This document shows, in pieces, positions 32,985 to 35,970 of a DNA stretch of 64,000 nt. The DNA is from Microbacterium trichothecenolyticum (GTDB lineage Bacteria > Actinomycetota > Actinomycetes > Actinomycetales > Microbacteriaceae). The stretch lies in the NCBI RefSeq assembly GCF_000956465.1, contig NZ_JYJA01000041.1, positions 186,001 to 250,000 on the forward strand. The letters are read 5' to 3'. The position numbers were made by a program, and so were the translations under genes. Position 1 is the stretch's first letter, and the number at the start of each line of letters is the position of its first letter. The notes beneath the pieces are model-generated. The model made no database searches and had not been told where the DNA came from. It saw only the letters and a list, made by a program, of their open reading frames with translations.

Positions 32985-33758
32985 TCAGGCCTCGCTCATG
33001 GCCTGGACCTCGGCCTTGCCCTTGGCGGCGTAGTACGCGGCGCGCGCGGCGTCACGGCGGGCCTGCTCGGCCTGACCGGCGTCGAGCACCTCCTGCGCGA
33101 CCTCGAACTGCGGTGCGGTCGGCACAGCGTGGTACTTCTCCATGTATGCGTCGAGCTCGGGGCCCGACTCCCACGACGTGATGAGGCAGTAGCGCGGCTC
33201 GGTGCCGTCGTGGTGCACGGCGTGCCACAGGCGCTGCGTGTCGACGATGAGCTGGGCGCCGGCGGGAAGCGCGACGCGGTACTCGATGCTCGGGTCGGTG
33301 CGGTTCTCACGCAGCACGAAGTAGCTGTTCTTGTCGTCGGTGAGGTTGAAGAACCCGCGCACGACCCAGCCGGTGCCGTCGGGGTTGAGGCGGTTGTTGT
33401 CGTCCTGGTGGAGGTTGTACAGCGCGTCGGCGTAGGTGTTGGGCTGCAGCTCGATGATGCGGCAGCGGCCGACGTTCGAGCCCGGCTCCTGTGCGCGACG
33501 CGTCAGGGTCGGCGCCTTCTCGGTCTGTTCGGGGATCCAGACGCCGTCCTTGTCGGTGCGCGGCGGCGTGTGGTTCCAGAACCCGTTGCACTCGATCTCG
33601 CCCTTGGCGGACGCGAGCGGCGCGAAGCGGGTGTCGCCCGACGACTTCCAGTCGACGTACTCGATCGACAGCCACTCCTGCGGGTCGATCTCCTCACCGT
33701 AGGAGTCGAGCACCACGAAGCCGGTCTCGTCGAGAGCGGCGGACTTGATGTAACCCAT
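32985..33758 (-). CDS. Fe(II)/2-oxoglutarate dioxygenase-like protein under an iron box
   Basis: A 257-residue protein that I cannot name. Around residues 105-200 it carries what looks like a jelly-roll oxygenase core: H117-x-D119 (LHQDDN), then H179 (RLWHAVHH) and R189 (EPRYCLITSW). The HxD...H facial triad plus an Arg ten residues after the distal His is the usual Fe(II) and 2-oxoglutarate ligand set. The layout recalls amino acid hydroxylases of the 2OG-Fe dioxygenase type. The C-terminal 50 residues are Ala/Glu-rich and helical. There is no signal peptide or membrane helix. A DtxR/IdeR-type box lies 52 nt upstream of the ATG, so expression should rise when iron is scarce. The substrate is unknown; siderophore or amino acid hydroxylation are possibilities only. 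Confidence 0.65.
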   Translation of the reverse strand: MGYIKSAALDETGFVVLDSYGEEIDPQEWLSIEYVDWKSSGDTRFAPLASAKGEIECNGFWNHTPPRTDKDGVWIPEQTEKAPTLTRRAQEPGSNVGRCRIIELQPNTYADALYNLHQDDNNRLNPDGTGWVVRGFFNLTDDKNSYFVLRENRTDPSIEYRVALPAGAQLIVDTQRLWHAVHHDGTEPRYCLITSWESGPELDAYMEKYHAVPTAPQFEVAQEVLDAGQAEQARRDAARAAYYAAKGKAEVQAMSEA

Positions 33759-33809
33759 GACGAATCATGCCTTTCGGTCAGTGAGCCAGCACGTTTTAAC
33801 AGGCTCAAC

Positions 33810-33828
33810 TTAGGTAAGCCTACCTCGG
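33810..33828 (-). promoter_or_regulatory. DtxR/IdeR-type iron box
   Basis: TTAGGTAAGCCTACCT matches the left half and centre of the DtxR consensus (TWAGGTWAGSCTWACCTWA) perfectly, with a shortened right half; AGGTA and TACCT form the dyad. Placed upstream of the minus-strand dioxygenase-like gene, it should mediate iron-dependent repression. Confidence 0.75.
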
Positions 33829-33907
33829 GGGTCTGGACGACCCCGAAGCCCGCGCCGTGAATAACCGGGGGCCGTCGCGCGCCCGCTCCGAGGCGGGGAG
33901 CCCGGCC

Positions 33908-33913
33908 TAGACT
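33908..33913 (+). promoter_or_regulatory. -10 element of the DUF262 gene
   Basis: TAGACT lies 9 nt upstream of the ATG at 33923. No Shine-Dalgarno sequence is seen, so a leaderless or nearly leaderless mRNA is likely. Confidence 0.5.
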
Positions 33914-33922
33914 GGACACGCC

Positions 33923-35929
33923 ATGGTCACTGCCACGAACGTCGATGCCACTGCTGTCAACACCATCGGCTGGCTCTCCGCCGCGGACTGGACGATCGTC
34001 GTCCCGGTGTATCAGCGGCAGTACCGGTGGGACATCGGCGGGTGCGAGCAGCTCCTCTCCGACATCCGTGCCGTGGCGGATCTCGACGATCGGCAGATGC
34101 ACTTCATCGGCTCGATCCTCTCTTCGGCGAGCGGCGAGGGATCCGACGCAGAACTCGTGCTGATCGACGGGCAGCAGCGGACGACGACGCTCATGCTGCT
34201 CGTCGCCGCCCTGCATCACACTGTGCGCGAGGCGGATCCCGACCTCGCCGATCAGCTGCAGCGGGTGCTCGTGCACTCGCACGACGCGACACGCACGAAG
34301 CTGCGCCCGCATCGCGCGTGGGCCTCCGTGTTCGAGCGCGTCGTGCTCGACCTTCCCCTGGCAGCGGGCGAGCACCGCGATTCGCGATTCGATGACAACT
34401 ACGCGTTCTTCCGCAGTCAGATCAGCCTCGAAGAGGCGCCCCACATCTGGCGAGGGCTCCAGAAGCTCGAGCATGTGGCGATCACGCTGGGCGCCGGCGC
34501 CAACGCGCAGCAGATCTTCGAGAGCCTCAACTCGACCGGTGAGCCGCTGCGCGACCACGAGCTCATCCACAACTACGTGCTGATGGGGCTCAACCACTCG
34601 GAGCAGCGTGAGATCGAGGCCGACTACTGGCAGGCGATCGAGCAGAACACCGGCGACTCGATCGCGGAGTTCTGGAGGCAGTACCTCGTCATGCGGACCG
34701 GCCGAGAGGTCACCGTCGTCGGCGGCCGCGGCGTGTACGACGCGTTCCGTCACGAGTTCCCGCGGCTCGACTTCGACGGCCTCCTGCACCACGCCGACGA
34801 GTGGCGCGAGCTCTCCCGCGTGTATCGCATCCTGCTCCGGCCGAAGGAGGCGCCGGATGCCGAGATCACGCGTCACCTCGCCTACCTCGGCACCTTCGGC
34901 ACGGGTATGTATCCGCTCGTGATGCGGGCGTACCGCGACTTCGAGCTGGGGTCGATCGGGCGCGACGAGCTGATCGACACGCTCGAGATGGTGCAGTCGC
35001 TGCTCGTGCGCCGAGCGGTGGTCGGCACCGGGGTCGATCGCCTGGTCGCGCGCCTCTGCCGCGCGCGCGAAGAGGGCGCCGGCGCGCTGGTGTCGGCGAT
35101 CTCTCGCATCACGCCGTCCGACGAGCGGATCGCGGTGGCCCTGAAGTACTCGGAGCTCCCCCACGCGGCTTACGTCCTCGGCCGCATCGCCGGAGTGGAC
35201 GGCGCGGGCGGACTCGACGTCGAGCACATCTTCCCGCTCGCTCCTGGCGACGGGTGGTCGGGCGACGGCGTGCGCGAGTGGGCGTCGTACACCGACGACG
35301 AGCAGAACAGCCATCGCGCCCTCGCCAACACGATCGGCAATCTCACCATCCTCGAGGAGGATCTCGCGCTCCGCGCCTTCGATCGGTCGTTCCCCGAGAA
35401 GCGGGCGCTGTACGCGCGCAGTTCCGTCGCCGCGACCGCCGAGCTCGCCGAGCTCCCCTCCTGGGGCACGGCGGCGATCGCGGACCGCTCGGCGCAGCTC
35501 ACCGGCCGATTCGTCGAGGTCTGGAAGCGTCCGGGCGGTCCCGCGATCGACGACGACGGCCTGACCCCGATCCTCGACGCCGTGCGCCGTCGCGGATGGC
35601 CTCCGGGGTGGCACCGGGAGTGGTCGTATGTCGAGTACTGCGGCGAGCACTGGGAAGTGCCCGACGTCAAGTACCTCTTCAACCGCGTCTTCAAGCGGCT
35701 CTGGGCGGACTCCCGCGAGGCGGTCGTCGCGTACAGCGCGCGCCGGGGTGGCCCGGTCTACACCGCGCAGTCCTGGAACGGCCAGTGGGACCGCCTCGAC
35801 GACGAGCATTCGCTCTATATGGGCTGGGACTCCAGCTACATGCTCAGTGCCGTGCAGGGCGTGCTCGAAGAGGCAGGACTGGCCCCCGAGGTCTTCGTCA
35901 AGTACTCCTACATCGGCAACGCGATGTGA
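33923..35929 (+). CDS. Orphan DUF262-HNH (GmrSD-like) restriction protein
   Basis: A 668-residue probable defence protein. The N-terminal DUF262 domain has VPVYQRQYRWDI and the nucleotide-hydrolysis motif DGQQR at residues 82-86. The middle region is helical, with QQIFESLNSTGEPL, typical of GmrS-like parts. A DUF1524-type HNH nuclease centre follows: VEHIFPL with His435, and N469-TIGNLTIL. Characterised proteins with both domains (GmrSD, SspE and similar) cut phage DNA carrying base or backbone modifications. Residues from about 540 form a Trp/Tyr-rich C-terminal domain (RRRGWPPGWHREWSYVEY) that I do not recognise and that may be a sensor. No methylase, dnd/ssp or other partner lies nearby, so it would work alone. 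Confidence 0.85.
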   Translation: MVTATNVDATAVNTIGWLSAADWTIVVPVYQRQYRWDIGGCEQLLSDIRAVADLDDRQMHFIGSILSSASGEGSDAELVLIDGQQRTTTLMLLVAALHHTVREADPDLADQLQRVLVHSHDATRTKLRPHRAWASVFERVVLDLPLAAGEHRDSRFDDNYAFFRSQISLEEAPHIWRGLQKLEHVAITLGAGANAQQIFESLNSTGEPLRDHELIHNYVLMGLNHSEQREIEADYWQAIEQNTGDSIAEFWRQYLVMRTGREVTVVGGRGVYDAFRHEFPRLDFDGLLHHADEWRELSRVYRILLRPKEAPDAEITRHLAYLGTFGTGMYPLVMRAYRDFELGSIGRDELIDTLEMVQSLLVRRAVVGTGVDRLVARLCRAREEGAGALVSAISRITPSDERIAVALKYSELPHAAYVLGRIAGVDGAGGLDVEHIFPLAPGDGWSGDGVREWASYTDDEQNSHRALANTIGNLTILEEDLALRAFDRSFPEKRALYARSSVAATAELAELPSWGTAAIADRSAQLTGRFVEVWKRPGGPAIDDDGLTPILDAVRRRGWPPGWHREWSYVEYCGEHWEVPDVKYLFNRVFKRLWADSREAVVAYSARRGGPVYTAQSWNGQWDRLDDEHSLYMGWDSSYMLSAVQGVLEEAGLAPEVFVKYSYIGNAM

Positions 35930-35970
35930 GAACGGGACGGATGTCTCAGTGAGAGGCATCCGTCCCGTTC
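35930..35970. terminator. Hairpin between the DUF262 and PTS genes
   Basis: A perfect 14-bp stem with a second short stem (TCTC/GAGA) in its loop begins directly after the DUF262 stop. It lies 22 nt from the stop of the convergent PTS gene. Confidence 0.85.

Follow-up and report, generated by a model that had tools for sequence, protein, structure and literature searches.

A GmrSD-family protein with a degenerate HNH motif and its divergent partner, a predicted Fe(II)/2-oxoglutarate oxygenase, in Microbacteriaceae

Analysis of a 64,000-nucleotide stretch of Microbacterium trichothecenolyticum DNA (the window; contig NZ_JYJA01000041.1, positions 186,001 to 250,000) points to a two-gene divergent module of the Microbacteriaceae in which a predicted Fe(II)/2-oxoglutarate oxygenase, P0002, is coupled to a nuclease-compromised, GmrSD-derived protein, P0001, that would serve as a switch or reader. 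This reading is given a probability of about 0.45. P0001 is probably one half of the module and not a lone nuclease, because the oxygenase accompanies it and its cutting centre has been partly lost. The co-occurrence and pairing of the two genes, the domain make-up of P0001, its degenerate nuclease motif and the purifying selection on copies without the HNH histidine are direct observations. The features of the locus are as follows.

32985..33758, minus strand: P0002, 257 aa, predicted Fe(II)/2-oxoglutarate oxygenase and divergent partner of P0001 (model, fold, residues)
33759..33922, no strand: shared divergent intergenic region of P0002 and P0001, 164 nt
33810..33828, no strand: DtxR/IdeR-type iron-box-like site, matching 13/19 of the consensus, about 51 nt away from the start of P0002
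33923..35929, plus strand: P0001, GmrSD-family protein, 668 aa (open reading frame, Pfam, alignment, AlphaFold2 model, fold matches)
33995..34579, plus strand: DUF262 (GmrSD_N) domain, residues 25-219 (Pfam, E 1.3e-28)
34166..34180, plus strand: DGQQR motif, residues 82-86 (sequence and alignment)
35213..35503, plus strand: degenerate DUF1524/HNH domain, residues 431-527 (Pfam and alignment)
35633..35899, plus strand: C-terminal domain, residues 571-659, with a SeqA DNA-binding-domain-like fold (VIA-align on the model)
35930..35970, plus strand: hairpin with a perfect 18-bp stem, lying where P0001 and a PTS EIICBA gene converge

P0001 consists of a DUF262 NTPase-type domain, a helical middle, a degenerate DUF1524/HNH domain and a C-terminal domain with a SeqA-like fold. 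The 668-residue open reading frame of the initial annotation is real, and so is its DGQQR motif. Pfam GmrSD_N and GmrSD_C both score above the gathering cut-off, the latter at residues 433-527 with an E value of 3.7e-14, and the PADLOC profiles Orf5 (E 2e-69), HEC-06 and SspE match the protein. The AlphaFold2 model (pLDDT 81.1, pTM 0.57) was compared with known structures. It matches DndI (Foldseek E 2.2e-15; VIA Z 23.1), the C-terminal structure of SspE (Z 24.6) and BrxU (Z 13.9). P0001 is assigned to the GmrSD family, with DUF262 and DUF1524 in one chain, because of these Pfam domains, PADLOC profiles and fold matches, which upholds the annotated kinship with modification-dependent nucleases. 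The alignment of P0001 relatives has 111 rows representing 95 distinct sequences, some species having been reached by two tools, and loci without a complete open frame were left out of the compared set. The DUF262 motifs QR (31-32), DGQQR (82-86) and FxxxN (F199, N203), defined as in excerpts of PMC4619093, are kept in 111/111 rows. DUF262 and residues 541-668 are the best-conserved large segments of the protein. The window's own genome has one match to P0001.

The nuclease centre has a different history. Excerpts of PMC4619093 give the canonical DUF1524 motif as E/D-H ... GN ... N. The P0001 rows do not conform to this E/D-H-N-N motif, the next motif Asn being present in 0 of 111. H435 and N469 had been annotated as the HNH centre. 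The histidine is real, being kept in 99 of the 111 rows and gone in 12; N469 is rejected as a catalytic residue, since this position is variable, with Asn in just 16 rows, and it is N473 that is invariant (111/111), as is E478 (111/111). The HMMER alignment sets DndI N541 against P0001 position 482, which is occupied by Ala in 104 rows, Ser in five, Phe in two and Asn in none. No row has Asn at positions 474-486, and L064 alone has one at 487; where exactly the missing Asn falls is alignment-dependent. Excerpts of PMC11662687 report that the N541A substitution in DndI abolishes nicking and defence. Asn occupies the position-482 equivalent in 10 of 10 plasmid-borne relatives, which were hand-picked among the 30 listed of 549 records. 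An intact HNH centre, as first annotated, is contradicted by these rows: judged by sequence, the P0001 HNH nuclease is degenerate, part of its active-site motif having been lost. Loss of the Asn is not proof of a dead nuclease. The invariant E478 might stand in for it, and H435 is mostly retained.

The 12 rows without H435 have W, N, Y, Q or P in its place; Subtercola boreus supplies a natural His-less member. Mapping of the residue onto a P0001 tree of 82 rows, 12 of them without H435, requires seven changes of state (at least five by the starred branches). Selection was measured in five pairs of His-less proteins, which cover nine of the 12 His-less rows, and dN/dS was 0.03-0.25 across all four segments. 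Ten pairs of His-containing proteins gave 0.01-0.36. The low ratios in the His-less pairs are a mark of purifying selection and indicate that proteins without H435 are still maintained. P0002 still adjoins P0001 at 11 of the 12 His-less loci. The essential role of P0001 is probably something other than classical DNA cutting, at least in the H435-less lineages.

The C-terminal region had been described as matching nothing familiar and as a possible sensor. The description is accurate for Pfam, which has no domain above cut-off beyond about residue 530. It does not extend to relatives: L215 and L216, two GmrSD proteins of Proteobacteria, end in a homologous domain (z 4.4 to 9.6 versus shuffles), and the idea of a domain unique to P0001 is rejected. 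VIA-align matched residues 571-659 to SeqA 3fmt_A with Z 7.9 and an rmsd of 2.8 over 89 aligned residues, and to SeqA 1iu3_C, a structure with hemimethylated DNA, with Z 7.7; both values come from the same single model. Other matches restricted to the C-terminal region have a Z of 2.7 or less among the 50 VIA matches listed, and SeqA is absent among the 50 Foldseek matches listed for the model. Sequence comparisons with SeqA were negative throughout, by PDB sequence search, by hhalign with one SeqA and by shuffling tests, in which the best p was 0.095 (L215) and that of P0001 was 0.85. Searched with the Pfam SeqA profile at E values up to 10, the window's genome gives no match. When the L215 C-terminus was compared with PDB sequences, the similarities were weak, the strongest of them to repeat proteins through many sub-threshold stretches. 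The annotated sensor is thus carried forward in a more specific form: the domain could read a DNA state or a DNA modification, a fair but unproven guess, as its SeqA-like fold is seen in the model and has no sequence support.

The distribution of the C-terminal domain was also determined. In a phylum sample it occurs in two of 326 genomes, both Microbacterium. A standalone form of the domain was not borne out, as 33 of the 37 matches in the family sample lie within open frames of 664-761 aa. Two of the remaining matches are in frames of 1004 and 1212 aa, one is in a frame of 579 aa (G393, an incomplete genome) and the last is in a 151-aa frame at a contig end.

P0002 is a predicted Fe(II)/2-oxoglutarate oxygenase. 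Its model (pLDDT 80.9, pTM 0.82) has a double-stranded beta-helix fold, with matches to proline 3-hydroxylase (Z 14.6), proline cis-4-hydroxylase (Z 14.4), AspH (Z 12.8) and PHD2 (Z 12.5). Identity to the Fe/2OG fold matches is 11-18% among the Foldseek matches listed. PiuC, an Fe/2OG iron-uptake factor, is also among the fold matches. Residues H117, D119, H179 and R189 are present in 159/159 alignment rows, which represent 128 distinct sequences, some species having been reached by two tools. From their usual spacing, H117, D119 and H179 are presumably the HxD...H metal triad and R189 the 2-oxoglutarate-binding Arg. Judged by the fold matches listed for the model, P0002 appears closer to amino-acid or protein hydroxylases than to DNA oxygenases. 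Searches of Pfam, NCBIfam, PHROGs and PADLOC matched no family at the limits used, and the P0002 profile, run against PDB sequences, reached no E better than 0.94. There was no match at E 1e-5 on plasmids (72,556 records) or phages.

P0002 relatives occur without P0001 in 14 of the 51 carriers in the family sample, and also in other actinobacterial families; the oxygenase family therefore has a function of its own. One paralogue, called B here (L141-L160), is found at varied loci, several of them near radA-, nei/lhr-, smpB- and glutathione-peroxidase-like genes as judged by eye, and is the sole P0002 copy found in small-genome genera. Relatives of about 210-250 aa occur in three other actinobacterial families (L167-L180 and L182; f29, f17, f9). 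Several of these have HxDDNNR, and the GmrSD C-terminal domain is absent.

Co-occurrence of the two genes was scored in 295 genomes of the genus. A strong P0001 match is present in 219, exactly the 219 that have P0002, and no genus genome among the 295 has P0002 alone. The description of P0001 as a solo protein does not survive this result, P0002 being present in 219/219 genomes with a strong match. P0001 is matched in 229 of the 295 genomes in all; ten of the matches are weak (E 3.4e-33 or weaker), their genomes have no P0002 and they are excluded from the 219/219 count. Among 249 genomes of the family, 37 carry the P0001 C-terminal domain and 37/37 of those have P0002, which in two of them (G312, G393) is of a more distant kind, at 67-68%. 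Another 14 family genomes, 1.3-2.5 Mb in size, contain P0002 relatives but lack the C-terminal domain. These co-occurrence counts are not phylogenetically independent.

Adjacency was counted on 80 loci, the best 80 of the 219. The genes are divergent and 93-372 nt apart in 78 of them, including L051, where P0002 is cut by a contig end. In the two exceptions, L069 and L110, a close P0002 (81% and 83%) lies elsewhere in the genome. L069 and L162 belong to one genome (G541), which has two P0001 copies: a partial one, cut by a contig end, adjoins P0002 and the other has no P0002 beside it. Outer neighbours vary, with 53 combinations of neighbour families over 76 loci by mechanical ORF calls, and the pair is retained. 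No account of such an oxygenase-GmrSD pair is among the papers listed by literature searches, and the one listed for Microbacterium with DUF262 concerns HEPN domains.

The comparison of presence and absence across relatives shows that P0001 is not a housekeeping gene, as 76 of the 295 genus genomes have no strong match. Twenty of these 76 genomes were inspected. All have DUF3145, and no match to the pair was found in a flank of up to 1500 nt; in seven, DUF3145 is followed 256-1035 nt on by a DMT-type transporter match with the pair absent between them. The P0001 tree tracks genera only partly, with Agreia in one clade and Microbacterium spread. Two copies from records titled Planococcus and Corynebacterium-like (L083, L078) fall among the Microbacteriaceae in the tree, and these assemblies are probably mislabelled. 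In the 34 loci where the fab cluster is retained, the correlation of P0001 distances is r 0.78 with FabH and 0.50 with P0002. Because P0001 correlates better with the core gene FabH than with its partner, the two proteins show no co-evolution beyond what shared descent would give. P0001 distribution is lineage-bound, neither universal nor obviously island-like.

The surroundings of the gene agree in part with the initial annotation. In close relatives the chromosomal stretch is indeed conserved, with FabD-FabH-AcpP-FabF-DUF3145 on one side of the locus. Among nine other window genes tested, PADLOC detected nothing beyond ABC-ATPase-type matches, all of them to a single ABC ATPase gene. The terminator assigned to P0001 holds as far as the hairpin goes. 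The 61-nt stretch with the hairpin at 35930-35970 folds very strongly, at -40 kcal/mol (z -6.3); the T tract that would complete a terminator does not follow it in the sequence. The hairpin is a possible bidirectional terminator.

The intergenic region was scanned with the DtxR/IdeR consensus, and the iron-box-like site at 33810-33828 scores 13 of 19. The best 19-mer scores 13 or more in 45 of 78 intergenic regions versus 0.6% of shuffles, and the best site lies 44-54 nt from the P0002 start in 76 of 78 loci. A related pattern gave six strand hits at four places in the window's own genome and one hit in a reversed control; the site at 33810-33828 is not among these hits. One of the four places adjoins a haem/iron-type ABC binding protein gene and others adjoin uptake-like genes, with roles assigned by eye. 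Other P0002 copies, mostly paralogue B, score 12 or more in 15 of 23 cases. The iron-box-like site goes with the oxygenase and not with the pair, because these other copies have it too. No site better than chance was found in seven P0002 relatives from other families. P0002 expression probably follows iron status.

In the mechanism proposed for the two-gene module, P0001 would act as an NTP-driven switch that reads a DNA state, and P0002, its expression probably iron-responsive, would set or edit that state. The state could consist in oxidation of a DNA base, or in hydroxylation of a residue, either of P0001 or of a target that both proteins share. The nearest folds of P0002, which are proline, aspartyl and HIF-prolyl hydroxylases, argue against the module, and action of P0002 on DNA or on P0001 is purely proposed. 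A more detailed version is fairly unlikely. In it, an iron-regulated P0002 writes or erases an oxidative mark, and the nuclease-degenerate P0001, with its SeqA-like reader, acts by NTP hydrolysis; the mark could be on DNA or on the reader, and classical HNH cutting would be unneeded. If true, this oxygenase-reader system would amount to an epigenetic or immune module of a writer-reader type. To our knowledge, such a module would differ from known restriction systems.

Two rivals retain the pairing and assign the output differently. The genes could form a restriction-modification-like pair, in which P0002 either labels host DNA as self by oxidising it or strips a mark off, and P0001 remains a working nuclease that senses modification and attacks DNA found in the wrong state, its HNH using another ligand, for example E478. 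The presence of P0002 wherever P0001 is found (219/219, 37/37) is expected of a nuclease that is toxic alone, and DndI, the best structural match, harms cells that lack its modification genes according to excerpts of PMC11662687. Retention of H435 in 99/111 rows and of N473 and E478 in all of them also fits an active enzyme, but the Asn essential in DndI is missing from 111/111 rows, and H435 has changed on five or more occasions, P0002 remaining next to P0001 at 11 of the 12 His-less loci. P0002 is also closer to amino-acid or protein hydroxylases than to DNA oxygenases among the matches listed, and the restriction-modification-like pair is rather unlikely. That same likeness, mostly to prolyl and aspartyl hydroxylases, favours a P0002 that hydroxylates P0001 itself or a shared partner, so that the supply of iron, oxygen or 2-oxoglutarate sets NTPase activity. 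The pairing with P0001 and the iron-box-like site upstream of P0002 are consistent with such control. P0001 cannot be the family's only substrate, given that paralogue B occurs in its absence, and this protein-hydroxylase reading is judged quite unlikely.

The remaining rivals give up either the partnership or the defence role. The iron-box-like site, the own-genome pattern places beside a haem/iron-type ABC binding protein gene and uptake-like genes (by eye), and PiuC among the P0002 fold matches could all reflect an iron-homeostasis or metabolic module without a phage-defence role, with P0001 co-opted as a DNA-binding regulator. This is decidedly improbable: the site accompanies oxygenase copies (15 of 23 others at 12 or more) and not the pair, and nothing links P0001 to iron. 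Least probable by far is a solo type IV restriction enzyme with P0002 as a linked passenger. P0001 does have GmrSD domains and does match the PADLOC profiles Orf5, HEC-06 and SspE, and HEC-06 and BrxU are said to work independently in excerpts of PMC11411939. A passenger would not be expected to co-occur in 219/219 genomes, to be kept through 53 neighbour combinations or to be in the genome even when unlinked, as in L069 and L110. The degenerate HNH also counts against a solo enzyme, and P0001 divergence tracks a core gene (FabH, r 0.78, 34 loci), unlike that of a mobile defence gene.

DUF262-DUF1524 proteins are treated as modification-dependent nucleases, and they match defence profiles such as PADLOC Orf5 and HEC-06. 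In the P0001 lineage, decay of the nuclease centre has occurred repeatedly, while the NTPase motifs are retained together with the C-terminal domain, and a partner enzyme is present throughout the sampled carriers. The lineage is a natural test of what DUF262 and a reader-like domain do without cutting. It also points to a likely functional partner of an oxygenase family that is unmatched in four profile libraries. Genes of this kind should not be labelled solo restriction enzymes.

P0001 shares with the GmrSD/BrxU type IV restriction enzymes a DUF262 domain with DGQQR, a helical middle and a DUF1524 fold. It differs from them in its degenerate HNH motif, its extra SeqA-fold-like domain, an oxygenase partner in every carrier sampled and a lineage-bound distribution. 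DndI, of the IscS-DndBCDE-DndI system, and SspE are its best structural matches, and excerpts of PMC11662687 describe DndI as also needing partner genes, which establish a state of the DNA. Unlike the partners of DndI and SspE, the partner of P0001 is an oxygenase, and no PADLOC profile of such a system matches the nine other window genes; the equivalent of DndI N541 is Ala, Ser or Phe in 111/111 rows. The GmrSD proteins L215 (Rhizobium) and L216 (Roseicitreum) are 28% identical over 97% of P0001, C-terminal domain included, and unlike P0001 they retain H-N-N. Their setting also differs, as none of 72,556 plasmid records matches P0002. The plasmid GmrSD relative at L216:4971-7028 adjoins a type ISP restriction/modification gene, with a DNA methyltransferase gene one further. 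The SeqA DNA-binding domain resembles residues 571-659 of the P0001 model in fold, at a Z just under 8, and has no detectable sequence similarity to them. P0002 shares its fold and the HxD...H...R residues with proline hydroxylases, AspH, PHD2 and PiuC, and is set apart from them by an identity of 11-18% in the matches listed and by fitting no curated family.
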